Assembly: GCA_030620975.1 (NCBI GenBank)
Contig: JAUXIO010000009.1
Coordinates: forward strand, 1 to 34,217
From: Dehalococcoidia bacterium
Lineage (GTDB): Bacteria; Chloroflexota; Dehalococcoidia; GIF9; JAUXIO01
DNA length: 34,217 nucleotides
Direction: 5' to 3'
The position numbers and the translations under genes were made by a program. The notes beneath the pieces are model-generated. The model worked only from the letters and a program-made list of their open reading frames with translations. It made no database searches and was not told the origin of the DNA. Positions 2,341-31,768 of the stretch are shown piece after piece (within the stretch, counting starts at the first letter, position 1; each line of letters begins with the position of its first letter).

Positions 2341-4290
2341 TTGACTGCTAGTTTAATCGGAATAGCTATCCTCTTTCCCTTCGCTGCTGGCTTTGTTTGC
2401 CTCACGCTTAAAAACCATAAAGCCAGAGCCGGCGTCGTTTTCCTCTCAGCTATAGTCCTGATAGCCACATCAATCTTATTCTTCAGCCAAGGAACTTTCC
2501 CCCTAGGGTACACTCCCAGCCACGAGTGGGATATGGCCATCTTTGTGCTTGATTATCTCCTCATGGCTTACTTCTTATATCTGGGCTTAAATGACTTTTT
2601 CCGCAACGGCATCAAAATTCGGAATGTTTCCACAATAGGATTAGTTCTAGTCCAGGCGATTTCACTTGCTCTCTTTGAATTCTCCTGGGCTCCCGAACTG
2701 CCCATAACAGTCGAGCCAGCACTATTCATAGACCACCTTTCCCTGATCATGTGCCTCATCATCTGCATTATTGGCTCGCTCATCTGTATCTACGGCATAA
2801 AGTATATGCAAGACCACGAAAAGCACCTGGGACTGGAGAAGACTAAGCAAAACTGGTTCTTCTTCTACATGGTAATGTTTCTGGGTGCTATGAACGGCAT
2901 CGTTTTTGCCAATAATATTCTGTGGCTCTACTTTTTCTGGGAAGTTACCACGCTGTGCTGTTATGCTTTGATTCGCCATGATGAAACTCCAGAAGCCATA
3001 GAAAGCGGCTTTCGCGCCTTATGGATGAACTTAATCGGTGGAGTGGGCTTCGTAGTTGCCATCATCCTCGCCTTCAATAGCTATGGCACGCTCTCCCTCA
3101 TAACGCTTATTTCAAATCCCACGCCGTTTCTTTTATTGCCATTGGCTTTCCTCTTCCTGGCAGCGCTGACCAAATCGGCTCAGGTTCCCTTCCAGGGCTG
3201 GCTGCTGGGAGCCATGGTAGCTCCAGTCCCGGTCTCGGCACTGCTGCACTCCAGCACCATGGTCAAAGCTGGAGTCTACCTGGCGGTGAGGATTGCCCCG
3301 GCATTCTGGGGAACATCTCTATCAGCGATGATAGCCGTTTTTGGTGGTTTCACCTTCATGGCCGCGGCCATTCTAGCTATAAGCCAAAGTGAAGCTAAAC
3401 GAGTCCTGGCCTATTCCACCATCAGTAATCTGGGGCTTATTATACTCTGCGCCGGAATAAACACTCCTCTAGCCATAACCGCGGCCATAATGCTGATAAT
3501 ATTCCATGCCATCTCCAAGGGGCTCCTGTTTTTGTGCGTGGGCAACATAGAGCACAACATTTGGAGCAAGAATATAGAAGATATGCAAGGCCTGGTAAGA
3601 AGGCTGCCGCTCATTACCGGCATAACCATCGCTGGAATGATATCCATGCTGCTGGCGCCCTTTGGCGTGCTCATCAGCAAATGGGCAGCCATCGAAGCTG
3701 CTGGAGCTTCAGCCTCCCTCTTGTCACCGCTGATTTTGCTCTTTTTGGTGATAGGCAGCGCCGCCACCACAGTGTTTTGGGTTAAGTGGATAGGACGCTT
3801 CCTGAGCGAGGTGCCCAGTACCGAAGGCCTAAAGATGGAGCCCTTCTCGCCACTCTACCACACTCCAGTAATGCTGCTGATTGGTGGAGCCGTAGTGCTC
3901 AGCATACTTATCGCCCCAGTTTATAATTGGCTTGTATCGCCAGCAGTTGGCACTTTTTATCTAACGACGGTATCCACCCAGAGTTGGTTCTTCCGCAGTG
4001 CCATCGGCTGTTTTGTCGCCTGGCCGCTATTTATAGTGCTGGCAGCAGCACTGGTGGTGCCATCTCTCTTCGTCAAAACCAAGCCAGAGAGAATAAGAGC
4101 CGCCTATATGTGCGGTGAAAATGTGGAATACGATACTCCGCAATTTCGCTCCGTAGCCGATGACAAGTTCGAGCTTCAACTGGGCGGAGTTTATCTGGAA
4201 GAAGATTTGGGCGAGAAGAAACTTGATAAGTGGTTTAAGGTAATAGCCCTGATTATCTTACTTGTTTTATTTGTGGTGGTCTTAGTATGA
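2341..4290 (+). CDS. echA: Ech/Coo-type hydrogenase membrane subunit, NuoL/MrpA-like proton-translocating antiporter family
   Basis: 649 aa; VPFQGWLLGAMVAPVPVSALLHSSTMVKAGVYLAVR is the diagnostic antiporter-like motif; C-terminal AAYMCGENV...; TTG start. Confidence 0.9.
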   Translation: MTASLIGIAILFPFAAGFVCLTLKNHKARAGVVFLSAIVLIATSILFFSQGTFPLGYTPSHEWDMAIFVLDYLLMAYFLYLGLNDFFRNGIKIRNVSTIGLVLVQAISLALFEFSWAPELPITVEPALFIDHLSLIMCLIICIIGSLICIYGIKYMQDHEKHLGLEKTKQNWFFFYMVMFLGAMNGIVFANNILWLYFFWEVTTLCCYALIRHDETPEAIESGFRALWMNLIGGVGFVVAIILAFNSYGTLSLITLISNPTPFLLLPLAFLFLAALTKSAQVPFQGWLLGAMVAPVPVSALLHSSTMVKAGVYLAVRIAPAFWGTSLSAMIAVFGGFTFMAAAILAISQSEAKRVLAYSTISNLGLIILCAGINTPLAITAAIMLIIFHAISKGLLFLCVGNIEHNIWSKNIEDMQGLVRRLPLITGITIAGMISMLLAPFGVLISKWAAIEAAGASASLLSPLILLFLVIGSAATTVFWVKWIGRFLSEVPSTEGLKMEPFSPLYHTPVMLLIGGAVVLSILIAPVYNWLVSPAVGTFYLTTVSTQSWFFRSAIGCFVAWPLFIVLAAALVVPSLFVKTKPERIRAAYMCGENVEYDTPQFRSVADDKFELQLGGVYLEEDLGEKKLDKWFKVIALIILLVLFVVVLV

Positions 4291-5141
4291 GCATCTGGCA
4301 AATGGCAATAATTTTCATAGCTGCCATTGTAGTGACTCCATTCATTGGCGGCTTACTGCGCGGCATTGATAGAAAGCTCACAGCGCACATGCAGGGCAGA
4401 ATCGGACCTCCCATTCAGCAGCCATTTTACGACATCATAAAGCTATTCAGCAAAAGTCAGATTATTACCACCAGGTCTCCGCTTCTACTAGTCTACGGTT
4501 ATCTGCTGTTCATAGTAGCTGCAGTGGTGCTATTTGCACTAAAACAAGACTTGCTTATGTTGATACTCGTCCTCGGAGTTGCCGATGTCTTATTGGTTAT
4601 GGGAAGCTTCAGCACCAGGTCACCATACAGCCAAATTGGCAGCAACCGGGAGCTTCTGCAAATGTTCTCCTACGAGCCAATTCTGATTCTGGCCAGCATA
4701 GCCATATACATGGAAACGGGAAGCTTTCTCATCTCCAGAATTCAGCAACCGCTTTTACCTACTTTGTGGCCAGTTTACCTTGCCCTCCTTATTGCCCTTA
4801 TCATCTTAATGAGAAAATCCCCCTTTGACATCTCGGCATCGGAGCATGCCCATCAAGAGATAGTTAGAGGTATATTCACCGAGTATTCAGGACTCTATTT
4901 GGGACTCATAGAGCTGGCTCACTGGTATGAACTCGTCCTCGTCCTGGCGGTGATCTCCCTGCTGTGGACCGCGGGAGTGTGGCCAGGTATACTATTAGCC
5001 CTTTTCTCATGGTTCATCGTTTTGATTATTGACAACATAAACGCCCGTCTTACCTGGTCATGGATGATTCGAACTTCCTGGGTTGCCGGGATAGGTTTAT
5101 CAATACTAAATATTATCGGGCTTCGCTTATTCGGAGGCTGA
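4287..5141 (+). CDS. echB: Ech/Coo-type hydrogenase membrane subunit, NuoH-like
   Basis: GRIGPPIQQPFYDIIKLFSK and RKSPFDISASEHAHQEIVRGIFTEYSG motifs; 4-nt overlap with echA. Confidence 0.9.
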   Translation: MSIWQMAIIFIAAIVVTPFIGGLLRGIDRKLTAHMQGRIGPPIQQPFYDIIKLFSKSQIITTRSPLLLVYGYLLFIVAAVVLFALKQDLLMLILVLGVADVLLVMGSFSTRSPYSQIGSNRELLQMFSYEPILILASIAIYMETGSFLISRIQQPLLPTLWPVYLALLIALIILMRKSPFDISASEHAHQEIVRGIFTEYSGLYLGLIELAHWYELVLVLAVISLLWTAGVWPGILLALFSWFIVLIIDNINARLTWSWMIRTSWVAGIGLSILNIIGLRLFGG

Positions 5142-5143
5142 AA

Positions 5144-5569
5144 GTGAATTGGATAGCTAGATCAAGAGCTAAATCGCCGTGGCTCCTCCACTACGACTGT
5201 GGCAGCTGCAATGGCTGCGATATAGAGATTTTGGCATGCCTCACACCTCTGTACGATATAGAGAGATTTGGCATCGTCAATATGGGCAATCCCAAGCATG
5301 CCGACATTCTTCTGGTTACCGGGCCAGCTAACCACCCGAACTATCGGGTACTGAAAAACCTTTATGAGCAGATGCCAGAGCCAAAGGTAGTTGTAGTGGT
5401 AGGAAGCTGTGGTTGCACTGGCGGCGTATTTCACAACTGCCCCAATATTTTGGGTGGAATAGATAAGGTCATCCCGGTAGATGTATATGTTCCGGGCTGC
5501 GCCGCAAAACCCGAGGCCATAATTGATGGGGTAGTCTTAGCTCTGGAGAAACTGAAAAATGGAAAATGA
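5144..5569 (+). CDS. echC: Ech/Coo-type [NiFe]-hydrogenase small subunit, NuoB-like
   Basis: HYDCGSCNGCDIEI, VVGSCGCTGGVF and PGCAAKPEAI give the proximal 4Fe-4S cysteines. GTG at 5144 follows GGAGG at 5133-5137; the tracked start at 5060 lies inside echB. Confidence 0.9.
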   Translation: MNWIARSRAKSPWLLHYDCGSCNGCDIEILACLTPLYDIERFGIVNMGNPKHADILLVTGPANHPNYRVLKNLYEQMPEPKVVVVVGSCGCTGGVFHNCPNILGGIDKVIPVDVYVPGCAAKPEAIIDGVVLALEKLKNGK

Positions 5570-5912
5570 AATAACCGTAAGCAAGGCTGAGCTCATCACC
5601 GAAGTGCAGAAGATGCTGGCTCAAAAAGCCATGTTCGGCACCGCCACCTGCCTGGATTTAGATGAGCGCTTCGAAATTATTTATCATTTCGAGCTTGAGC
5701 AAGGTTTAAAAATGAGGCATATCAGGGTTAGCCTGGCCAAAGATGATACTTTGCCAAGCATATCCAATATATATATGTGCGCCGCTTTGATTGAAAACGA
5801 GATGCAGGAGATGTTTGATATAAAAATCAGCGGCATCGCACTTGATTTCAAAAGGGGAATGCTTCTAGCCAAGGAAAGCCCCAAAACTCCGCTGATGAAA
5901 GGGAAAGAATAA
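5559..5912 (+). CDS. echD: Ech/Coo-type hydrogenase subunit, NuoC-like
   Basis: 117-aa ORF in the conserved position between small and large subunits, with CAALIENEMQEMFDIKISGIALDF typical of NuoC/EchD. Confidence 0.85.
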   Translation: MENEITVSKAELITEVQKMLAQKAMFGTATCLDLDERFEIIYHFELEQGLKMRHIRVSLAKDDTLPSISNIYMCAALIENEMQEMFDIKISGIALDFKRGMLLAKESPKTPLMKGKE

Positions 5913-5913
5913 G

Positions 5914-6993
5914 ATGGCACGCACGGTTATTCCCTTTGGCCCTCAGCATCCGGTATTTCCCGAGCCCATTCAACTTAAGCTAGAGTGCGAGGATGAAAGG
6001 ATAGTTGGCGTTGTGCCAGTTATCGGCTATATTAGCCGCGGCATTGAGAAAGCAGCCGAACTCAATCCCTTCCGCAATAATATCTTCCTGTGCGAGAGAG
6101 TTTGCGGCATCTGCAGCTTCATGCATGCTCTGTGCTATTGCCAGGGAATTGAGGATATGATGAAGGTTGAAGTACCTTCCAGGGCCAGATTTCTCCGCGT
6201 TTTCTGGGCTGAGCTCTCCCGAATGCACAGTCACTTGCTTTGGCTGGGGCTCCTTGCCGACTCCTTTGGCTTCGAAAGTCTATTTATGCAGGTGTGGCGA
6301 GCCAGGGAAATAATTCTGGATATCTCGGAAATGACATCAGGGCACAGAATCATTCAATCCACTAATGTAATCGGCGGAGTGAGAAGAGACATAGATGAGG
6401 AAATGGCTCAAAAGGTGGAGGAAATGCTCGCCCAATTTAAGGAACTTGCAGACAGAAGCATACTGCCCACAATCCTCAATGACCCTACCATAAAGGAGCG
6501 AACTGTGGGCAAAGGTATCCTAACTAAAGAGCAAGCTGAACTCCTGGCTGCGGTGGGTCCTACTCTCAGGGGCAGCGGAGTTGCCTCAGATATGAGGATG
6601 ACGGAATACGCTGCCTATAAGGAAATTGGCTTTGAGCCAATAGTAGAGACCGCCGGGGATAGCTATGCCAGAACTCTGGTGAGAGTAAAAGAGATTTACC
6701 AATCGCTAGATATTATCCTTAAGGCTTTATCAATGATGCCCGAAGGTGATATAGCTGTCAGGGTGACTGGACGCCCTGAAGGTGAAGTCGTTTCCAGAGT
6801 GGAACAACCCAGAGGAGAGCTAATTTACTATGTGAAGGGAAATGGCACTGCCAATCTGGAAAGATTAAAGATAGGGACGCCAACCTTTGCCAATATACCT
6901 TCACTTTTAGTTATGCTCCCCGGCTGCGAGTTAGCCGATGTGCCCGTGATAACTCTTTCCATCGACCCTTGCATTGCTTGTTGTGAGAGGTAA
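5914..6993 (+). CDS. echE: Ech/Coo-type [NiFe]-hydrogenase large subunit, group 4
   Basis: N-terminal CERVCGICSFMHALCYC and C-terminal SIDPCIACCER-stop, giving the four Ni-Fe ligand cysteines. Confidence 0.92.
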   Translation: MARTVIPFGPQHPVFPEPIQLKLECEDERIVGVVPVIGYISRGIEKAAELNPFRNNIFLCERVCGICSFMHALCYCQGIEDMMKVEVPSRARFLRVFWAELSRMHSHLLWLGLLADSFGFESLFMQVWRAREIILDISEMTSGHRIIQSTNVIGGVRRDIDEEMAQKVEEMLAQFKELADRSILPTILNDPTIKERTVGKGILTKEQAELLAAVGPTLRGSGVASDMRMTEYAAYKEIGFEPIVETAGDSYARTLVRVKEIYQSLDIILKALSMMPEGDIAVRVTGRPEGEVVSRVEQPRGELIYYVKGNGTANLERLKIGTPTFANIPSLLVMLPGCELADVPVITLSIDPCIACCER

Positions 6994-6999
6994 AAAGAT

Positions 7000-7344
7000 A
7001 TGCCTTGGATGCTACCTACAATCATGAAAAACCTCTTTTCCAGACCGGTAACGAGACGCTATCCCTATGTAAAGAGGCCACCCTTCCCCGAAGCTCGAGG
7101 AAAGCTCCACTTCGATACCGAAAAATGCAATCTCTGCGGCGCTTGCAGCCGGATTTGCCCAGCAAATGCCATAATTGTGGATAAGGAAGGCAGAACTATA
7201 AAGTATAACCCATTTGCTTGTATCTATTGTGGCAACTGCGTTGAGGGTTGTCCCAAAAAAGCCATAACTATGGATATACTCTATTCCCCACCAGCCATAC
7301 AAAAAGAGGAAGAGGTAATTACATTCCCACCATCCACAAAGTAG
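7000..7344 (+). CDS. echF: Ech/Coo-type hydrogenase 2[4Fe-4S] ferredoxin subunit
   Basis: CNLCGACSRICP and CIYCGNCVEGCP motifs directly after echE. Confidence 0.9.
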   Translation: MPWMLPTIMKNLFSRPVTRRYPYVKRPPFPEARGKLHFDTEKCNLCGACSRICPANAIIVDKEGRTIKYNPFACIYCGNCVEGCPKKAITMDILYSPPAIQKEEEVITFPPSTK

Positions 7345-8502: not shown

Positions 8503-8527
8503 TAAATTAAAGGAGGTGCATCCCAAA

Positions 8528-8794
8528 ATGGCATACAAAATCACCGATGATTGCATCAGCTGTGGCGCCTGTGAGCCAGAATGCAAAAATGAGGCTATTA
8601 AGGAAGGGGAAACGATTTATATTATCGACCCTGACAAATGTACTGAATGCATCGGCTGGTTTGAATCGTCTAAATGCGTTGAAATATGTCCGGTAGATGC
8701 TTGTATTCTCGACCCTGACCACAAAGAAAGCCGCGAACAACTATTAGAAAAGTGGCGTAAATTGCATCCCGGGGAAACTCCGGCCACCAGTTAA
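8528..8794 (+). CDS. 2[4Fe-4S] ferredoxin, Allochromatium-type with insertion in the second cluster loop
   Basis: CISCGACEPEC and CTECIGWFESSKCVEICPVDAC. ATG at 8528 follows AAGGAGGTG at 8510-8518; the tracked GTG at 8516 overlaps the Shine-Dalgarno. Confidence 0.9.
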   Translation: MAYKITDDCISCGACEPECKNEAIKEGETIYIIDPDKCTECIGWFESSKCVEICPVDACILDPDHKESREQLLEKWRKLHPGETPATS

Positions 8795-20174: not shown

Positions 20175-20219
20175 AACTGAACCGCACACTATGATAAAGC
20201 CTGGAGAACAGGTTCAGTT
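20175..20219. terminator. Inverted repeat AACTGAACC...GGTTCAGTT between convergent genes
   Basis: Perfect 9-bp arms at 20175-20183 and 20211-20219, 27-nt loop; straddles the stop of the minus-strand Fe-S protein; no clear T-tract. Confidence 0.3.
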
Positions 20220-21286
20220 ATATAAACTACTTTCTTATCGCTTCCTCTCTTGTGAGCGATATAGCTAAAGCTAAATTCGCAAAAGGGACAAGCGGTTACC
20301 AGCGGGCTTACTGTAACTTGGTCCAATACCTTGCTAGCTACCTTTAAGGATAGGTCACGACAGACCATCCTTACCCCCGCCCCAGCCCCACAGCAAGGGG
20401 CATCTTCCCTATTCTCAGGTAACTCATTTACCTTTATCCCGCTTAAGCACAAAACTTCTCTCGGCTCATCGAAAATTCCGTCAGGCCTTGCCAATCGACA
20501 TGGGTCATGATAGGTCACCTCACCCACCACCTGGGCTATTTTTATTCCCCTTTCCTTCAACAATGAAGGTAACAACTGGACAATATGCACCAATTCAAAA
20601 TCTACACTCCCCAAAAGCTGAGGATACAAATACTTAAAGCAGTAATAGCAGGCAGGGCAGACCAAGATAATCTTTTTTATACCTAGCTTCTTAAATTTAT
20701 TAACATTTTCCTCAGCTATTTCTCGGAGGAGATCGTCTCTGGCTGCGTCTCCATATATCACCCCACAACACCCCTCATCCTTTAAAATCATAAAGTCAAC
20801 ACCCAATTTCTTTAATAACAGGTAAGATGAAGCAGCAGCATCTTTAGTCACATAGGCGGATGCACAACCGACATAGAGAAGCGTGCTCGACTCACGACTG
20901 GGGAACTCCTCAGGCAGCCAATCAAGCCTCCTAGCCGGGTCTCCATTGACAGCATTACCTAACCTCTGGGTTGATTCGACAAGCTTTTTATGTGGTTCTG
21001 GAGATTCTATCCCCCTTTTTCTCAACTTTAGACGTGAATGCCAAACAATATTCGCAATATCTATGCTGAATGGGCAAGCTTCGGTGCAAAGGCGGCATTC
21101 GAGGCAGCTATAGACGCTTTCTACCATTTGAGGGGTGATTTCCCCACCTTGAAGTATCCTCCCAGCAACCTTAATTCTGGCTATAGGTGAAAAATTGTCA
21201 TCTTGGGTTGCATTATAGGTAGGACAAACTTGCAAGCAAACTCCACATTCGTTGCAGAGCTCCACTGATTCCATTAATTCTGTCAT
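20189..21286 (-). CDS. Heterodisulfide reductase-like (Fe-S)-binding protein with two CCG domains (HdrD/GlpC/GlcF family)
   Basis: CNECGVCLQVCP and CLECRLCTEACP clusters, then two CCG modules (GCCGVIYG...CPACYYC and PCCGAGAG...CPFCEFSF). Confidence 0.88.
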   Translation of the reverse strand: MTELMESVELCNECGVCLQVCPTYNATQDDNFSPIARIKVAGRILQGGEITPQMVESVYSCLECRLCTEACPFSIDIANIVWHSRLKLRKRGIESPEPHKKLVESTQRLGNAVNGDPARRLDWLPEEFPSRESSTLLYVGCASAYVTKDAAASSYLLLKKLGVDFMILKDEGCCGVIYGDAARDDLLREIAEENVNKFKKLGIKKIILVCPACYYCFKYLYPQLLGSVDFELVHIVQLLPSLLKERGIKIAQVVGEVTYHDPCRLARPDGIFDEPREVLCLSGIKVNELPENREDAPCCGAGAGVRMVCRDLSLKVASKVLDQVTVSPLVTACPFCEFSFSYIAHKRGSDKKVVYITEPVLQALS

Positions 21287-23514: not shown

Positions 23515-23895
23515 ATGCACGAGCTGTCCATAACTCAAAGTATCCTCGACATTTCCTTAGACAAAGCCAAGGCAGCCCAAGCCTACAAGATAAACAAGAT
23601 CAGTCTAGTTATCGGCGAGTTAACCGGGTTCGTTTCTGAGTGCGTCCAATTCTACTTTGATTTCTTGAGCAAAGACAGCATTGCCGATGGAGCCACTCTC
23701 AACTTCAAGCTGGTGGCTGGGGAGCTACGCTGCCGCAAATGCTCTACCACCTTTAATCCCAAAGATATCATGTGGGTTTGCCCCATCTGCCAAAGCCGAA
23801 GTGTGGAAGTAATCGGAGGCAGGGAACTCTACATAGAAAGTATAGAGGTAGAAACAAATGGAGATAAAAGTCCTACAAAATATTCTGGGAGCTAA
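23515..23895 (+). CDS. hypA: Hydrogenase maturation nickel/zinc protein HypA
   Basis: MHELSITQSILDI N-terminus; zinc motif CRKCSTTFNPKDIMWVCPICQS. Confidence 0.93.
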   Translation: MHELSITQSILDISLDKAKAAQAYKINKISLVIGELTGFVSECVQFYFDFLSKDSIADGATLNFKLVAGELRCRKCSTTFNPKDIMWVCPICQSRSVEVIGGRELYIESIEVETNGDKSPTKYSGS

Positions 23896-24517
23896 CGAAG
23901 CCATCGCCGCTCAAAACAGGCAACTCTTAGACGAGCATAAAATTGCCGCCATTAATTTCATGTCCTCGCCGGGAGCAGGTAAAACCAGCCTTCTATTACA
24001 AACAATAAAGAACTTAAAAAGTAAAGTCAAAATAGGCGTCATCGAAGGCGATGTAGCTTCAAAACTGGACTCCGATAAGATAAAAGGGGAGGGAGTAGCC
24101 GTAATTCAGATAAGTACTGGCAGTAGTTGCTCCCTCGAAGCTCACATGATTAGTTTGGCTCTTAAAGACTTACCCCTAACAGACATAGACCTACTTTTCA
24201 TAGAAAATGTTGGTAATCTCATTTGCCCCGCTGAATTTGCCCTGGGAGAACACAAAAAGGTAGTGATCTCCAGCGTGCCTGAAGGCGATGATAAACCTAC
24301 CAAATATCCTTTAATATTCACTGAAACTGATGTGGTGGTGATAAATAAGCTCGACCTTCTGCCTTATGTTGACTTTAACCTCAATAACTTCCGCCGTGCC
24401 CTCAAAGGAGTGAATCCAAAGGTTAAAATCTTCGAAGTCTCCTGCAAGACCGGTGAAGGTTTGAGAAACTGGTATTCCTGGCTGTTAAGCGAAGTAAAGG
24501 CCATTACTACAAGATAA
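23858..24517 (+). CDS. hypB: Hydrogenase maturation GTPase HypB, without His-rich N-terminus
   Basis: SSPGAGKTSLL P-loop, IEGDVAS, ENVGNLICPAEF and NKLDLLPY motifs; overlaps hypA by 38 nt. Confidence 0.93.
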   Translation: MEIKVLQNILGANEAIAAQNRQLLDEHKIAAINFMSSPGAGKTSLLLQTIKNLKSKVKIGVIEGDVASKLDSDKIKGEGVAVIQISTGSSCSLEAHMISLALKDLPLTDIDLLFIENVGNLICPAEFALGEHKKVVISSVPEGDDKPTKYPLIFTETDVVVINKLDLLPYVDFNLNNFRRALKGVNPKVKIFEVSCKTGEGLRNWYSWLLSEVKAITTR

Positions 24518-24522
24518 GGTAA

Positions 24523-24550
24523 TTGCAAAAACCAAATTTAGAGTTATAAT
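24523..24550 (+). promoter_or_regulatory. Candidate promoter ahead of the 90-aa ORF
   Basis: TTGCAA (24523-24528), 16-nt spacer, TATAAT (24545-24550). Confidence 0.5.
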
Positions 24551-24578
24551 CTATTAAAGAATAAGTGAGGAGGTTAAG

Positions 24579-24851
24579 ATGGCAAAGATTTTGGTGCTTC
24601 ACACGGATAAGGGGAAAATGCCAAAACTCAATGAGCTACAACTGCGGCACTTCCACGTAAATGCGGGGGAGGCCATGAGAAGAGACTCCAAGCTTAAGCT
24701 CAATGGCGTATATGTAGACAAAGATGGTGTGGGAATTAGCGACTGGGAAGCCAAAGACGCTAAAGCAGTAGAAAAGGTTATGAAGGAATTCTTAGATTTT
24801 ATCCCTTATGACAAGATAGTTAAGGTGGAGCCACTGCCACTAGAGCTCTAA
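24579..24851 (+). CDS. Small hypothetical protein between hypB and hypC
   Basis: 90 aa (MAKILVLHTDKGKMPKLNELQLRHFHVNAGEAMRRDSKLKLNGVYVDKDGVGISDWEAKDAKAVEKVMKEFLDFIPYDKIVKVEPLPLEL); GAGGAGG Shine-Dalgarno at 24567-24573. Confidence 0.8.
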   Translation: MAKILVLHTDKGKMPKLNELQLRHFHVNAGEAMRRDSKLKLNGVYVDKDGVGISDWEAKDAKAVEKVMKEFLDFIPYDKIVKVEPLPLEL

Positions 24852-24943
24852 GCATTTAGCTGAGTCAGCTTACCATTCTGCATCACATTTTTTACTGATA
24901 ATTGCAGCGATCTAGCCAAGTTTTTTATTATCGGAAGGTGAAA

Positions 24944-25011
24944 CAAAGTAGAAGGTAATTCCAATGCAGGTGTTGCGTCCTACAGTCCTCATCAAACTGC
25001 CTTCTACTTTG
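24944..25011. promoter_or_regulatory. Inverted repeat CAAAGTAGAAGG...CCTTCTACTTTG in the leader of hypC
   Basis: Perfect 12-bp arms at 24944-24955 and 25000-25011; ends 24 nt before the hypC start. Confidence 0.6.
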
Positions 25012-25035
25012 CTTAGTTCGTGGGGAGAGTGAACT

Positions 25036-25263
25036 GTGTGTCTAGCCATCCCGGTACAGGTCGTATCAATAAAAGATAGTGAAGCTGAAGCTGAAATTGG
25101 CAGCGTAAAGCGCCGCATTAATATCTGCCTTACCCCTGAAGTCAAGGTAGGTGATTATGTATTATTACACACCGGCTATGCCATAAATGTCATCGATGAG
25201 GCTGAAGCCCGAGAAACCTTGAGATTGCTAGAGGAGATAGCAAGCCTGAGTGAAATTCATTGA
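25036..25263 (+). CDS. hypC: Hydrogenase maturation chaperone HypC
   Basis: MCLAIPVQVV N-terminus; GTG start after GGGGAGA at 25022-25028. Confidence 0.93.
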   Translation: MCLAIPVQVVSIKDSEAEAEIGSVKRRINICLTPEVKVGDYVLLHTGYAINVIDEAEARETLRLLEEIASLSEIH

Positions 25264-26335
25264 CGAGTATCGCAATGTTGAATTGGGTAAAAAGCTAATA
25301 GCAAGAATCCACCAACGCTCTACCCAACCGGCGAGGTTGATGGAATTCTGCGGTGGGCACACTACAGCTATACTTAGGCATGGTATTCGCCAGCTCATTC
25401 CTCAAAACATAGATATGCTCTCCGGCCCCGGCTGTCCAGTATGTGTCACCGCCAATGCCGATTTAGATAAAGCTATTGCTTCAGCTCATCTGCCCAACAC
25501 CATTATCACCACCTTCGGTGACATGATGAAAGTTCCCGGCAGCCATTCCAGTTTACAGCAAGCAAAGGCAGAGGGAGCAGATATTCACGTAGTTTACTCT
25601 ACTCAAGATGCCCTCCAAATTGCCCAAGATAACCCCCAGAGCTCGGTTATCTTCATTGGCATTGGCTTCGAAACCACGGCACCAACTATTGCCGCTTCCA
25701 TCCTCGAGGCAGAACAAAAGGGGATTAAAAATTTCTACATTTTCTCCTTCCTCAAGCTATGCCCGCCGGTGATAAAGGCAATTCTTAACCTTGGCGAGGT
25801 TAGACTCAACGGCATCATCGGTCCCGGCCATGTGAGCACTATAATTGGCTCCCACCCTTACGAATTCATCCCAAAAGAATACGGCATCGGCTGTGTTATC
25901 TCTGGCTTTGAGCCATTAGATATTCTACTGTGCATAGATAAGCTAGTAGAGCAAATTGAAGGCGATCAGCCACAGGTAGAAATAGCTTATCGCCGCAGCG
26001 TAAAGCCCGGAGGTAATAGGCGAGCATTGGACTTAATGAATGAAGTCTTTGAAATTGGCGAAGCTAACTGGCGCGGTATGGGCACAATTCCCGCCAGTGG
26101 CCTAAAACTTAAACGTAAATACCAACGCTTTAATGCCGAGCAGATTTTCTCAATAGACCCAGGACCACCCCGAGAACCAAAGGGATGCATCTGTGGCGAA
26201 ATCCTCCGCGGCATCAAGATGCCGACGGAATGCAAATTATTTCGCCGAATCTGCACTCCAGAGCATCCCGTGGGTCCGTGTATGGTTTCTTCCGAGGGCG
26301 CTTGCGCTGCCTATTATCAATATGGGGTTAATTAA
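25250..26335 (+). CDS. hypD: Hydrogenase maturation Fe-S protein HypD
   Basis: LMEFCGGHTTAILRHGI, SGPGCPVCVT and C-terminal GCICGEILRGIKMPTECKLF...CTPEHPVGPCMVSSEGACAAYY. Confidence 0.95.
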   Translation: MKFIDEYRNVELGKKLIARIHQRSTQPARLMEFCGGHTTAILRHGIRQLIPQNIDMLSGPGCPVCVTANADLDKAIASAHLPNTIITTFGDMMKVPGSHSSLQQAKAEGADIHVVYSTQDALQIAQDNPQSSVIFIGIGFETTAPTIAASILEAEQKGIKNFYIFSFLKLCPPVIKAILNLGEVRLNGIIGPGHVSTIIGSHPYEFIPKEYGIGCVISGFEPLDILLCIDKLVEQIEGDQPQVEIAYRRSVKPGGNRRALDLMNEVFEIGEANWRGMGTIPASGLKLKRKYQRFNAEQIFSIDPGPPREPKGCICGEILRGIKMPTECKLFRRICTPEHPVGPCMVSSEGACAAYYQYGVN

Positions 26336-27339
26336 TGAACAAAACCATCCTACTCGCCCACGGCAGCGGTGGCAAACTCAGTCACGAGCTATTGGAAAAG
26401 AACTTGCTGCCCCCATTCAGCAATCCCCTCCTAGATAAGCTTGATGACTCAGCCGTTTTCGAATTCAGTGGGCGCCTCGCCTTTACCACCGACAGCTACG
26501 TAGTTAACCCCATATTCTTCCCCGGCGGCGATATTGGCAAGTTAGCCGTATGCGGCACGGTCAATGACCTGGCTATGAGCGGAGCTAAGCCTCTATACCT
26601 AAGCGTATCTCTGGTTATAGAAGAAGGTCTCCTCATAGAGAAGCTTGAACGCATAATCAAATCAATAAAAGCCGCCACCAAGAAGGCTGAAATAATTATA
26701 ATCACCGGCGATACCAAAGTGGTGAACCGGGGCAATGCTGATAAGCTATTTATCAATACCTCCGGTTTGGGAATCATCCCACCGCAACTAGACATTTCAG
26801 GAGCCAATGCCAGAGTTAGTGACAAAATCATCTTAAGTGGAAACATTGGTGACCATGGCATGGCAGTAATGAGTCAGCGCGAAGGCTTAAAGTTTTCCAC
26901 ACCCATAAAAAGCGACTGCGCTCCATTAAACAAACTGGTTTCGCAAATGCTTGAAGCCTCCTCCCAAATTCACTGCCTGCGTGACCCCACCCGGGGCGGA
27001 CTGGCTACCACTCTCAATGAACTCGCCAAGCAGTCCAACGTGGGCATCACTATAGAAGAAGAAAAGGTGCCGGTAGCGGAAGCAGTACGAGCTGCCTGTG
27101 AGCTCTTGGGTTTCGATCCCCTTTACATTGCCAACGAAGGTAAATTGGTAGCCATAGTTGACTCCGCCCATGCTGAATCGGTCTTGGCCAAAATGAAACA
27201 AAATCGTTATGGCACTAATGCCTCGATTATAGGTGAGGTAACCAGCGACCATCCGGGAAGAGTGATAATGAAAACCAGGCTGGGTGCCTCGCGCATTATT
27301 GATATGCTCTCCGGAGAACTACTCCCCCGAATATGTTAG
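26335..27339 (+). CDS. hypE: Carbamoyl-dehydratase HypE
   Basis: HGSGGKLSHELL N-terminus, DPTRGGLATTLNELA, C-terminal LLPRIC-stop. Confidence 0.95.
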   Translation: MNKTILLAHGSGGKLSHELLEKNLLPPFSNPLLDKLDDSAVFEFSGRLAFTTDSYVVNPIFFPGGDIGKLAVCGTVNDLAMSGAKPLYLSVSLVIEEGLLIEKLERIIKSIKAATKKAEIIIITGDTKVVNRGNADKLFINTSGLGIIPPQLDISGANARVSDKIILSGNIGDHGMAVMSQREGLKFSTPIKSDCAPLNKLVSQMLEASSQIHCLRDPTRGGLATTLNELAKQSNVGITIEEEKVPVAEAVRAACELLGFDPLYIANEGKLVAIVDSAHAESVLAKMKQNRYGTNASIIGEVTSDHPGRVIMKTRLGASRIIDMLSGELLPRIC

Positions 27340-28205
27340 CAACCATGAAAATAGAAGAGTTTCCAGCAATTTGGTATCAGGCAGCTAACTGCGGCGGATG
27401 CTCAATATCCATTTTCAATTCAGTCAGCCCCGGCATCGAGAATATTCTCATTGACGAGATTATTCCAGGCAAACACATAAATTTGAGATTTCACACCACT
27501 ATAATGGCCGCAGAAGGTAACGCCGCAGTTAGATTACTGGAGAACTCTAAAAAGGCTAACGAGGATAACTACATCCTAATAGTGGAAGGTGCCATACCCA
27601 CGGCAAAAAATGGCACTTATGGAACTACGGTTAACAAAGACGGTAAGCGGGTCCCTATGGCAACACAGCTTCAATCCCTGGCCCAAGATGCTTCAGTCAT
27701 TATCGCCTTAGGCACTTGTGCCGCCTTCGGCGGTATAGCAGCAGCTCAACCCAACCCGACTGGCTGCATGGGCGTCGACCAATTTCTAAACGCACGCCGC
27801 ATTACCACGCCGCTGATAAACGTTCCCGGATGCCCGCCCCACCCCGACTGGTTCACGGGAACCATCGCCTCTCTGCTGCTCTACGGACCACCCAAACCAG
27901 AAGAGCTGGATGAATACAAGCGCCCCAAAACTTTCTACAATAAGCCCATTCACGAAAATTGCCCCCGCCGTGCTTACTTTGAGGAAGGCAAATTTGCCAC
28001 GAGCTTCGGCGAGCTTGGATGCCTTAATGAATTGGGCTGCAAAGGTCCCGTCACTTATGCTGACTGCCCCCTCAGAAAATGGAACAACGGCATTAATTGG
28101 TGCATCGGCGCCGGCTCACCATGTATTAGCTGCTGCGAACCCGGATTCCCCGATTTAGTATCACCCTTTTACCAGAAATTAAATGCAACCAGCTTGCCAC
28201 TATAG
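27333..28205 (+). CDS. [NiFe]-hydrogenase small subunit, group 1-like, no Tat signal peptide
   Basis: ANCGGCSISIF, GTCAAFGG, VPGCPPHPDWF, HENCPRRAYFEEGKF, CLNELGCKGPVTYADCPLRKWNNGINWCIGAGSPCISCCEPGFPD: ligands for three Fe-S clusters. Confidence 0.92.
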   Translation: MLATMKIEEFPAIWYQAANCGGCSISIFNSVSPGIENILIDEIIPGKHINLRFHTTIMAAEGNAAVRLLENSKKANEDNYILIVEGAIPTAKNGTYGTTVNKDGKRVPMATQLQSLAQDASVIIALGTCAAFGGIAAAQPNPTGCMGVDQFLNARRITTPLINVPGCPPHPDWFTGTIASLLLYGPPKPEELDEYKRPKTFYNKPIHENCPRRAYFEEGKFATSFGELGCLNELGCKGPVTYADCPLRKWNNGINWCIGAGSPCISCCEPGFPDLVSPFYQKLNATSLPL

Positions 28206-28231
28206 ACAAAACTCAAAAAAGGTTAAATGAT

Positions 28232-29770
28232 TTGACTAAAATAGTAATTGAGCCGGTAACTCGAATTGAGGGCCACCTTAGAATAGAAGTAATAACGGAA
28301 AATAACGAGATAAAAGAAGCCAGAAGCTCGGGGACGCTATTTAGAGGCTTAGAAATTATTCTGCAGGGTAGAGACCCCGGCGATGCCCCCATATACACTC
28401 AGCGCATCTGCGGGCTTTGCACCACCAGCCACTCCATGGCATCTGCACTAACCCTGGATAGCGCCTTTGGCATCGCTGATGAAATACCCGACAACGGTAG
28501 AATTTTGCGCAATCTCATCTTGGGGGCCGCTCATATCGCCGACCACATTCTCCACTTTTATCACCTAGCTACCCTCGACTACGTAGATATGACCAGAATA
28601 GCTAATTATGACGGTAGCGACTCAACGCTTAATTCTATAAAGAGGCTTGCCGAGGCGGATGAGCTCAGACTCTTTACCGCTGGCCATGAAGGCGACTATC
28701 GCCTTTCCGATAAAGCAAATATGGAATTAGTGGCTCATTACATCAGAGCCCTAGAAATGCGCCGTAAAGCTCAAGAAATGCTCTCCATTTTCGGCGGCAA
28801 GATGCCTCACAATATGGCAATCGTTCCCGGAGGTGTTACCACAACTCCCTCCACAGATAAAATGCTCTCCTTTTTATGGAGATTGAATGAGCTAAGAGAC
28901 TTCATTAACAATGTCTATATCCCCGATATTCTTACCATTGCCGAGGCCTACAGCGACTACTTCGAAATCGGAGCCGGCTGTGGTAACTTGCTTTCCTATG
29001 GAAATTTTGAACTTGATGATGAGAGAAGATTTCTAAACTCAGGTACAGTTTCCACCAAGCTCAAGCCCAGCCCACTAGATATTGATAAAATCTGGGAACA
29101 GGTGAAATACTCATGGTATGCCAGTTCGACTACTGGCAGACATCCTCGCCAAGCTGAGACCAAGCCAGAGCCAAATAAAAAGGGAGCTTACTCCTGGATA
29201 AAGGCACCCCGCTATGATGGTAAAGCTTATGAAGCCGGACCTCTAGCCAGAATAATGGTTAATTATGCCAATGGCAACCAGGTGGTAAAAAACCTCGTTG
29301 ATTCCGCCCTCGCCCAACTCAAGCTCAGTCCCAAAGCTATGTTTTCAGTCCTTGGTCGCCATATCGCTCGAGCCCTCTACACCAAGCTCATTGCTGATGC
29401 CATGCCAGTATGGTTACTCCAGCTTAGGCCAGAAGAACCAGCTTATATCAAATCTACCGTTCCCGAGCAAGCCACGGGAATGGGACTGATTGAAGCCGCT
29501 CGAGGCGCGCTGGGGCACTGGATCGAGATAAAAGACCACAAAATTGCTAACTACCAATGCATTACACCCAGCACCTGGAATCTGTCTCCCAAGGATGATA
29601 GGGGGCAACCCGGCCCAATGGAACAAGCTCTTATTGGCACCAAAATGAAAGACGAAAACACTCCCCTTGAGATCGGGCGCATCATACGCTCTTTTGACCC
29701 CTGCCTCGCCTGTGCCGTTCACCTTGTTACCCCCAAGGGAGGAAACATTGACACACTCCACATTACCTGA
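28232..29770 (+). CDS. [NiFe]-hydrogenase large subunit, group 1-like
   Basis: EPVTRIEGHLRIEV, QRICGLCTTSHSMAS and SFDPCLACAVHLVTPKGGNIDTLHIT with cleavable C-terminal tail. Confidence 0.94.
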   Translation: MTKIVIEPVTRIEGHLRIEVITENNEIKEARSSGTLFRGLEIILQGRDPGDAPIYTQRICGLCTTSHSMASALTLDSAFGIADEIPDNGRILRNLILGAAHIADHILHFYHLATLDYVDMTRIANYDGSDSTLNSIKRLAEADELRLFTAGHEGDYRLSDKANMELVAHYIRALEMRRKAQEMLSIFGGKMPHNMAIVPGGVTTTPSTDKMLSFLWRLNELRDFINNVYIPDILTIAEAYSDYFEIGAGCGNLLSYGNFELDDERRFLNSGTVSTKLKPSPLDIDKIWEQVKYSWYASSTTGRHPRQAETKPEPNKKGAYSWIKAPRYDGKAYEAGPLARIMVNYANGNQVVKNLVDSALAQLKLSPKAMFSVLGRHIARALYTKLIADAMPVWLLQLRPEEPAYIKSTVPEQATGMGLIEAARGALGHWIEIKDHKIANYQCITPSTWNLSPKDDRGQPGPMEQALIGTKMKDENTPLEIGRIIRSFDPCLACAVHLVTPKGGNIDTLHIT

Positions 29771-30236
29771 AGCCAATAACTCCCAGCCCAGCATCGTTAT
29801 TTTGGGAATGGGCAATTTGCTACTTAAGGACGAAGGGGTCGGAGTCCACCTCGCCAAGCTAATAAGCCAAAAACCCAATAACGTCAAACTGGAAATAATC
29901 GATGGCGGCACTTTTCCAGATATTCTATCATTGCCCGATAATGTGACCAAGCTAATTATCGTTGATGCCGCCAAAGGTGTGGGGAAACCGGGGACAATCT
30001 ACCGTTTCCACGCCGATGATATAAATTCGAGGTTAAAGCCCACATTTTCGCTACACCAGATAGATATACTGGATAGCTTGAAAATGCTAAGCTTGCTCGG
30101 TAAACAGCCTAAGTCCACGGTTATTTTCGGCATTGAACCCAAGGTGATAGATTGGGGGTTGGAGCTCTCGCCAGAGATAGAAGCCAAGCTGCCCGAAATT
30201 ATGAAATTGGTGCTCAAAGAAATAAGTGAAACATAA
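29748..30236 (+). CDS. Hydrogenase maturation endopeptidase (HyaD/HycI family)
   Basis: SIVILGMGNLLLKDEGVGVHLAKLI and IEIIDGGTFPD-like motif (LEIIDGGTFPD). TTG at 29748 follows AAGGGAGG at 29735-29742; the tracked start at 29667 is over-extended into the large subunit gene. Confidence 0.88.
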   Translation: MTHSTLPEANNSQPSIVILGMGNLLLKDEGVGVHLAKLISQKPNNVKLEIIDGGTFPDILSLPDNVTKLIIVDAAKGVGKPGTIYRFHADDINSRLKPTFSLHQIDILDSLKMLSLLGKQPKSTVIFGIEPKVIDWGLELSPEIEAKLPEIMKLVLKEISET

Positions 30237-30905
30237 ATGATAATCTCCGAACTAAAACCGTGGTCGGAAATATTAAGCTACCTAAAAGACGAAGGAAAAA
30301 TCTTTCTGGTCGGCTGCAAGGGCTGTGCCGAAGCCTGCCACACCGGTGGCGAAGCTGAAGTCCTGGAGATGAAACGGAGGTTAGAACAGGAAGGTAAAAT
30401 CATTACCGGCTTCAGCATTATTGACCTCCTCTGTGATAAGGCGCTGGTAAAAATGAGACTGACGCCTCACCAAATTGAAGTCAAGGCTGCCGACTCCTTG
30501 CTCATCATGAGCTGTGGCATTGGAGTTCAAGCCGTCTCGGCGCTAATAAACAAGGTGACGCATCCAGCCTGCAACACCATCAACATGGGCGGTACCCAAG
30601 GAGAGTGGCGAGGTGATGAGCGATGCCAGCAATGTGGTGACTGCATCCTTGATTTGACCGGTGGCATATGTCCACTGTCCGTCTGCCCAAAAGGACTGCT
30701 CAACGGCCCCTGCGGCGGCAGTAAGAACGGAAGATGCGAGGTTGAGCCAGAAGTGCGAGAATGCGGTTGGCACTTAATTTATGAGCGATTAAAAAAATTG
30801 GGACGACTGGATAAAATGAAGGCCATTCCTCCACTCAAAGACTATAGCAAGATGCAGCCACCCAAACAACTCAGAAATACCACATTATGGTCACTGGAAC
30901 GATGA
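30237..30905 (+). CDS. metV: MetV-type partner of methylene-THF reductase (zinc/Fe-S C-terminal domain family)
   Basis: VGCKGCAEACHTGGEAEV, RCQQCGDCILDLTGGICPLSVCPKGLLNGPCGG motifs; followed by metF. Confidence 0.88.
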   Translation: MIISELKPWSEILSYLKDEGKIFLVGCKGCAEACHTGGEAEVLEMKRRLEQEGKIITGFSIIDLLCDKALVKMRLTPHQIEVKAADSLLIMSCGIGVQAVSALINKVTHPACNTINMGGTQGEWRGDERCQQCGDCILDLTGGICPLSVCPKGLLNGPCGGSKNGRCEVEPEVRECGWHLIYERLKKLGRLDKMKAIPPLKDYSKMQPPKQLRNTTLWSLER

Positions 30906-31768
30906 GTCTGCGCCAATCCCTTAAAAGCGGTAAGTTTGTGATAACTGCCGAAATTGGTCCACCTAAGGGCGTCGATGTCAATGACCTATTAAACAATGCG
31001 GAGTTACTCAGGGGCAGAGTAGACGCAGTTAATGTCACCGACCAGCAAAGCTCCATAATGAGGTTAGGTTCTTTAGCCTCCTGCGCTTTGCTTAAAGAGA
31101 GGGGACTGGAACCTATAGTGCAAATGACTTGCCGCGATCGCAACCGCATCGCCTTGCAATCCGATTTGCTCAGCGCCCAAGCACTGGGCATGGAAAATAT
31201 TCTCTGCCTTACCGGCGACTATGTCACCTTGGGTGACCATCCTCAAGCCAAACCAGTTTTTGACCTCGATTCTGTTTCCCTGCTTCAGGCTGCTCGGCAA
31301 TTGGAGCAAGGTCATGACTTAGCTGGTAAAGAGCTGAAAGGCAGCCCTCACTTCTTCCTTGGCGCCAGCGTAACCCCTGGAGCTGAACCCATAGAGCCCC
31401 AACTTATCAAGATGGAGAAAAAGGTTAAAGCCGGTGCCCAGTTTTTCCAAACCCAAGCTATTTTTGAACCCAGGAAATTTGAGCAGTTTATGCAGCAAGC
31501 CGAAAATTTCAATGTGCCGGTATTGGTCGGCATAATAGTTCTCAAGTCAGCCAATATGGCTCGGTTTATGAATAAGAACATAGGCGGCGTGTATGTGCCT
31601 GAGACAACTATCGAGGAGCTGGATAAAGCCCAAGATAAGACCAAAAAGGGTATTGAAATAGCTGTGCGACTGATTAGTGAAATGAAAAGTATGTGCCAAG
31701 GAATCCACATCATGGCCATTGGGCTGGAAGCTAAAGTGCCAGCTCTGATTGATGCTGCTGGGCTGTAA
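30902..31768 (+). CDS. metF: Methylenetetrahydrofolate reductase, MetF family
   Basis: ITAEIGPPKGVD, LCLTGDYVTLGDHPQAKPVFDLD and FFLGASVTPGAEP motifs. ATG at 30902 gives an ATGA overlap with metV; the tracked start 30887 is also possible. Confidence 0.9.
   Translation: MSLRQSLKSGKFVITAEIGPPKGVDVNDLLNNAELLRGRVDAVNVTDQQSSIMRLGSLASCALLKERGLEPIVQMTCRDRNRIALQSDLLSAQALGMENILCLTGDYVTLGDHPQAKPVFDLDSVSLLQAARQLEQGHDLAGKELKGSPHFFLGASVTPGAEPIEPQLIKMEKKVKAGAQFFQTQAIFEPRKFEQFMQQAENFNVPVLVGIIVLKSANMARFMNKNIGGVYVPETTIEELDKAQDKTKKGIEIAVRLISEMKSMCQGIHIMAIGLEAKVPALIDAAGL

Follow-up and report, generated by a model that had tools for sequence, protein, structure and literature searches.

The window analysed here is a whole contig (C34; 34,217 nucleotides) of a Dehalococcoidia genome that is 1.02 Mb in size, 94.65% complete and split over 71 contigs. 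It carries a run of eleven genes, hypA-hypB-ORF90-hypC-hypD-hypE-hydS-hydL-hydD-metV-metF, all of them open in the ORF table and all on the forward strand. The run begins with hypA (23515..23895, +; Pfam HypA, 1.7e-31) for a nickel chaperone, hypB (23858..24517, +; Pfam cobW/HypB/UreG, 7.1e-21) for a nickel-insertion GTPase, an ORF of 90 aa between hypB and hypC (ORF90; 24579..24851, +) with no family match in Pfam or NCBIfam, hypC (25036..25263, +; Pfam HupF_HypC, 1.9e-26), hypD (25250..26335, +; Pfam HypD, 4.7e-148) and hypE (26335..27339, +; Pfam AIRS and AIRS_C). It continues with hydS and hydL (27333..28205 and 28232..29770, both +, each with its Pfam match) for the small and large subunits of a [NiFe]-hydrogenase, hydD (29748..30236, +; Pfam HycI, 5.3e-24; start codon uncertain, 29667 or 29748) for a HycI-type hydrogenase maturation protease, metV (30237..30905, +; Pfam match of the MetV C-terminal domain, DUF5981, 1.7e-32) for the Fe-S/zinc subunit of methylene-THF reductase, and metF (30887..31768, +; NCBIfam NF006396, 3.2e-77, under the cut-off) for its catalytic subunit. 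The genes lie tightly packed, with junctions of 38 nt (hypA/hypB), 14 nt (hypC/hypD), 1 nt (hypD/hypE), 7 nt (hypE/hydS), 23 nt (hydL/hydD) and 0 nt (hydD/metV). The initial annotation had listed this run, its strand and its junctions, with which the ORF coordinates and the Pfam and NCBIfam families agree; its ATGA overlap between metV and metF holds with the second ATG (30902) as the metF start, and fails with 30887, where the longest ORF begins.

By its subunits, its NiFe ligands and its three Fe-S clusters, HydSL is a group 1 [NiFe] hydrogenase of the HysAB lineage. The nearest solved structures of both subunits are periplasmic [NiFeSe] hydrogenases, the best PDB match of HydS being a periplasmic NiFeSe small subunit (1.2e-75), and HydL scores 695 bits against NCBIfam NF033181 (cut-off 600). 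HydL has a cleavable C-terminal extension and the active site DPCLAC, with Cys rather than selenocysteine, as in all aligned homologues, and its Ni-site motif residues are intact wherever aligned, except for one His in one sequence. The three-cluster small subunit of the initial annotation is borne out by all 12 Fe-S ligands of HydS (C20, C23, C129, C167; H207, C210, C230, C236; C245, C257, C264, C267), which an alignment finds kept in 12 relatives. Across 81 homologues 11 of the 12 are essentially invariant, and the twelfth, C257, the fourth ligand of the medial cluster, is Cys in 61/81 and Val in 19/81; compared with known HysB structures, this suggests that the medial cluster is probably 4Fe or 3Fe according to lineage. 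The same annotation had called the hydrogenase soluble-looking, and we found no Tat signal in the window's HydS and no Tat motif in any of the 81 HydS proteins of the MetV-linked group (0/81), a missing export signal that points to a cytoplasmic form.

The arrangement hydS-hydL-(hydD)-metV-metF is widely kept. In a HydS scan of one genome per species (85,462 species), from which the best 80 matches were retained, metV lies downstream of hydL in 67 of the 80 loci; the other 13 comprise 11 contigs that end no more than 800 bases from hydL, one locus with a broken hydL and metV and metF still in place (L099), and one whose contig stops early (L130). In three of the 67 (L115, L123, L124) a histidine kinase gene, metF and two more small genes precede metV, which lies 3.8 kb farther downstream. 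Because such a scan favours close relatives by design, we ran a control over HydS matches in 158 genomes of the class Dehalococcoidia. Above 490 bits, 13 of 15 matches have MetV 2-3 kb downstream and the other two lie at contig ends, whereas none of the 21 long matches of ~196-420 bits stands beside MetV (Fisher p ~1e-9, with no correction for shared descent). All seven unlinked HydS proteins that were read among these 21 bear a Tat motif, e.g. TRRDFV, so the soluble form and the linkage to MetV go together. Together these counts rule out chance adjacency.

Relatives are Dehalococcoidia, and within the same order the distance from HydS to MetV is ~2.7 kb in each of the two families sampled (f2 and f4). 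More widely, the records of the linked loci carry at least ten phylum names (Chloroflexota, Nitrospirota, Thermodesulfobacteriota, Myxococcota, Spirochaetota, Actinomycetota, Aerophobetes, Armatimonadota, Omnitrophota, Planctomycetota, Bacillota, Poribacteria); nearly all are MAGs and single records may be misbinned, while the overall pattern is independent of any one record. The adjacency that the initial annotation proposed to look for in related genomes is thus kept across orders and phyla.

Some clusters have features of their own. A histidine kinase with a cyclic-nucleotide-binding domain is inserted in L088, L106, L116, L148, L115, L123 and L124 (domains read with Pfam in L116 and L123, an ORF of similar size in the others), and wherever the stretch beyond metF was read, response regulators follow. 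Etf genes and a gene for a membrane HdrD/NarI-like protein lie directly upstream of hydS in five Dehalococcoidales loci (L103, L104, L118, L125, L129), and a second metV follows the linked one in tandem in L110 and L109, the L109 copy being split by a stop. At L056:1390-5875, a 72-aa piece of hydS overlaps a formate-dehydrogenase-like gene directly before metV-metF, which looks like the replacement of one module by another.

MetF and an Fe-S/zinc MetV encoded together by overlapping genes make up a MetVF-type methylene-THF reductase, and a genome search found no other copies of either in the window's genome. In a tree of 107 MetV proteins, 67 hydrogenase-linked (the window's included) and 40 unlinked, there are two changes between linked and unlinked labels, against 33 in shuffles, and the sole odd row is L099, which is actually linked. 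The linked MetVs thus appear as one clade on one side of a branch, and D63, L70 and W124 are common to them and absent or rare in the 40 unlinked proteins. The pairwise divergence of HydS correlates with that of HydL at 0.83, MetV at 0.69 and MetF at 0.31, and across phyla with MetV at 0.57 versus MetF at 0.17, values that include a contribution from shared ancestry. That HydS tracks MetV far more than MetF fits a model in which the hydrogenase docks on MetV and paralogues of MetF replace one another. Structure prediction for MetV alone was confident (pLDDT 89, pTM 0.87); its fold has weak, generic matches in the PDB, and a search of solved PDB chains with the MetV sequence returned zero matches. 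A HydS-HydL-MetV model, built from the in-frame read-through of L134 with stops as residues and 19 rows, was poor (pLDDT 69, pTM 0.60), and HydS itself folded badly in it.

Comparison within the order suggests what the hydrogenase may do. In family f4 the cluster reads cdhD-nuoE-nuoF-cooC-hydS-hydL-hydD-metV-metF, inside a CODH/ACS-type operon, and the same place in a sister genome (G011, locus L176) holds nuoE-nuoF-cooC-RnfC2-metV-metF, the RnfC2 there combining a MetV domain with RnfC_N and Nuo51. In type III reductases, RnfC2 is the subunit through which electrons from NADH enter (PMC8760232). Elsewhere in the order, MetVF pairs are linked to genes for NuoEF or Hdr-MvhD, or to FdhAB-like genes. 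With RnfC2 in the hydSL slot and these further partner genes, MetVF looks like a core that accepts different electron-input modules, HydSL being one of them. Beside the window's own metVF the operon contains neither RnfC2 nor HdrCBA, as the initial annotation had noted, nor MvhD; the two Nuo51 domains of the genome are on C25 and C19, and its Hdr/Mvh cluster is on C35. Two further arrangements were seen. Nine loci (L157, L158, L160, L161, L163-L165, L168, L169) have nuoE, a fusion of NuoF with a pyridine-nucleotide oxidoreductase (~1020 aa), metV and metF, which by gene content is an NADH-module-linked MetVF outside the published types I-IV. L159:115-5470 has an mvhD-like gene, a molybdopterin formate-dehydrogenase-like gene, an FrhB/FdhB-like gene, metV and metF, possibly a formate-linked MetVF.

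We consider it probable that HydSL serves as the module through which electrons enter a cytoplasmic H2:methylene-THF oxidoreductase (H2 -> HydL -> HydS -> MetV -> MetF), and on our best reading this would be a fifth kind beside the published MTHFR types I-IV (PMC8760232, PMC9430772). In this scheme the Ni-Fe site of HydL would split H2, and the electrons would travel through the three HydS Fe-S clusters to those of MetV and on to the flavin of MetF, where methylene-THF would be reduced to methyl-THF for the CODH/ACS branch. HydSL would then be to MetVF what RnfC2 (NADH) is in type III or HdrABC-MvhD in type IV. We infer a physical HydSL-MetVF complex, direct transfer from HydS to MetV, and this direction of the reaction. 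The conserved adjacency and the position of HydSL in the RnfC2 slot of G011 strengthen the candidate H2-dependent methylene-THF reductase put forward in the initial annotation. In about half of the clusters hydS has no neighbour of the same orientation immediately before the cluster, and we found no third redox gene common to all clusters among the linked loci, which argues that HydSL and MetVF suffice. In some lineages HdrA-MvhD, NuoEF or Etf-HdrD genes lie near the cluster, and there the electron route may differ. The potentials of H2 (-414 mV) and methylene-THF (-200 mV; PMC9430772) give a computed -41 kJ/mol at 1 atm H2 and -13 at 1e-5 atm, so the transfer would be exergonic, as the initial annotation had expected. 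A soluble, direct reaction in the cytoplasm would conserve no energy.

In the window's genome a CODH/ACS cluster lies on C19, and FolD and an Hdr-MvhADG cluster on C35. At 2341-7344 the window itself encodes an Ech/Fpo-like membrane complex that resembles group 4 hydrogenases, with both CxxC motifs retained in the large subunit; it is a candidate ion-pumping partner. At 20189-21286 (-) lies the gene for an Fe-S protein resembling TfrB/HdrD-type proteins. With ~5% of the genome missing, we found no FTHFS match over the cut-off and zero GCV_T (GcvT) matches; the source of methylene-THF is puzzling, with CODH/ACS, FolD and MetVF present and neither of these two. It is tempting to speculate on a phylum-spanning fifth MTHFR class, with a cytoplasmic HysAB-type hydrogenase docked on MetV, that here could join the group 4 complex in an internal H2 cycle, a broader proposal on which we are evenly divided. 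In such a cycle, the group 4 complex would pass electrons from ferredoxin to H2 with ion pumping, and H2 would then drive the formation of methyl-THF.

Other explanations have to be weighed against direct wiring. The least improbable, which we still regard as unlikely, is that HydSL and MetVF form no complex: they would be expressed together and be linked by a common soluble carrier, ferredoxin or flavodoxin. Reduced ferredoxin does donate to purified type II MetVF in vitro (PMC8760232, PMC9430772). A ferredoxin gene is present in the window (8516-8794), but ferredoxin genes are not conserved neighbours among the clusters, linkage to the hydrogenase sets the metV clade apart, and it is MetV, not MetF, that tracks HydS. 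Moreover, at low environmental levels H2 is a weak reductant for ferredoxin. More doubtful still is a bifurcating enzyme, in which a further partner such as Hdr-MvhD (on C35) joins and H2 reduces both methylene-THF and a low-potential acceptor. Such coupling would restore the energy balance, the cluster has HdrA-MvhD genes at its side in L087, L115, L123, L124 and L137, and the window's genome encodes Hdr and MvhADG; however, that Mvh has its own hydrogenase and Hdr genes, and no bifurcating subunit is found in the operon or in common to all clusters.

We give very little credence to a reverse reaction, in which the enzyme would oxidise methyl-THF and give off H2, as happens in syntrophic acetate oxidation: our calculation makes it slightly favourable at 1e-6 atm H2 with a methyl:methylene ratio of 100:1, but H2 then has to be very scarce and the folate ratio skewed. 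It would surprise us just as much if the neighbourhood were accidental, the hydrogenase serving another acceptor in an operon that is merely co-regulated. Co-regulation can bring genes of unrelated anaerobic functions together in one operon, and here the maturation genes sit in the same run, yet the contrast within the class (kinship again ignored) and the arrangement kept across phyla speak against it.

The direct H2-driven reductase that we favour has a precedent. The initial annotation knew of no described enzyme of this composition and asked for a check of novelty. Both the adjacency and the suggested role have in fact been published: HysAB adjoins MetVF in two Ca. Bipolaricaulia clusters, where it was suggested in 2024 that it may supply electrons (PMC11287216); this was the one earlier mention of the adjacency in our literature search, which covered sources other than subscription journals and preprints. 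The two modules, the suggested role and the group 1a hydrogenase are alike there. Nevertheless, that report concerns another phylum, and the part of its text available to us gives the matter one sentence on two MAG clusters, with no assay and none of the conservation, clade, Tat or module-swap evidence. That paper limits the novelty; what is added here is the spread over many phyla, the clade of linked MetVs, the difference in Tat signals and the exchange of input modules.

Among characterised systems, the type III RnfC2-MetVF of Acetobacterium woodii (PMC8760232) likewise has an input subunit encoded beside a MetVF core; in contrast, its input is NADH via RnfC2, and here it would be H2 via the hydrogenase. 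The type IV HdrCBA-MvhD-MetVF of Moorella and Sporomusa similarly has extra redox subunits, and H2 drives methylene-THF reduction in Sporomusa membranes (PMC9430772). There, however, a periplasmic Tat hydrogenase oxidises H2 through the membrane, whereas here the hydrogenase has no Tat signal and the operon neither Hdr nor MvhD. The periplasmic group 1 [NiFeSe]/[NiFe] HysAB of Desulfovibrio, to which HydS and HydL are nearest among solved structures, shares the three-cluster chain and the fourth Cys at the medial cluster, but the window's hydrogenase differs in lacking Tat, in having Cys for Sec and in having a folate enzyme as its operon partner. The partner of Desulfovibrio HysAB is a periplasmic cytochrome.

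Acetogen bioenergetics has yet to settle which electron donor MetVF reductases use in the cell (PMC8760232). For Chloroflexi, earlier work did not resolve the role of group I hydrogenases, and called the electron partner of the one in RBG-1351 unclear (PMC3971608). RBG_13_51_36 (L108), which from its name is probably the same population, bears the cluster described here, and its genome (G044) gave one HydS match only. If the hydrogenase is wired to MetVF, the finding would bear on both questions and would predict that many anaerobic lineages still uncultured use H2 to drive C1 reduction. It would also sharpen an energy puzzle, as the exergonic step of the pathway, when spent on direct cytoplasmic H2 oxidation, saves nothing; the puzzle would be eased if the H2 were recycled from an ion-pumping hydrogenase or if a further acceptor were coupled.
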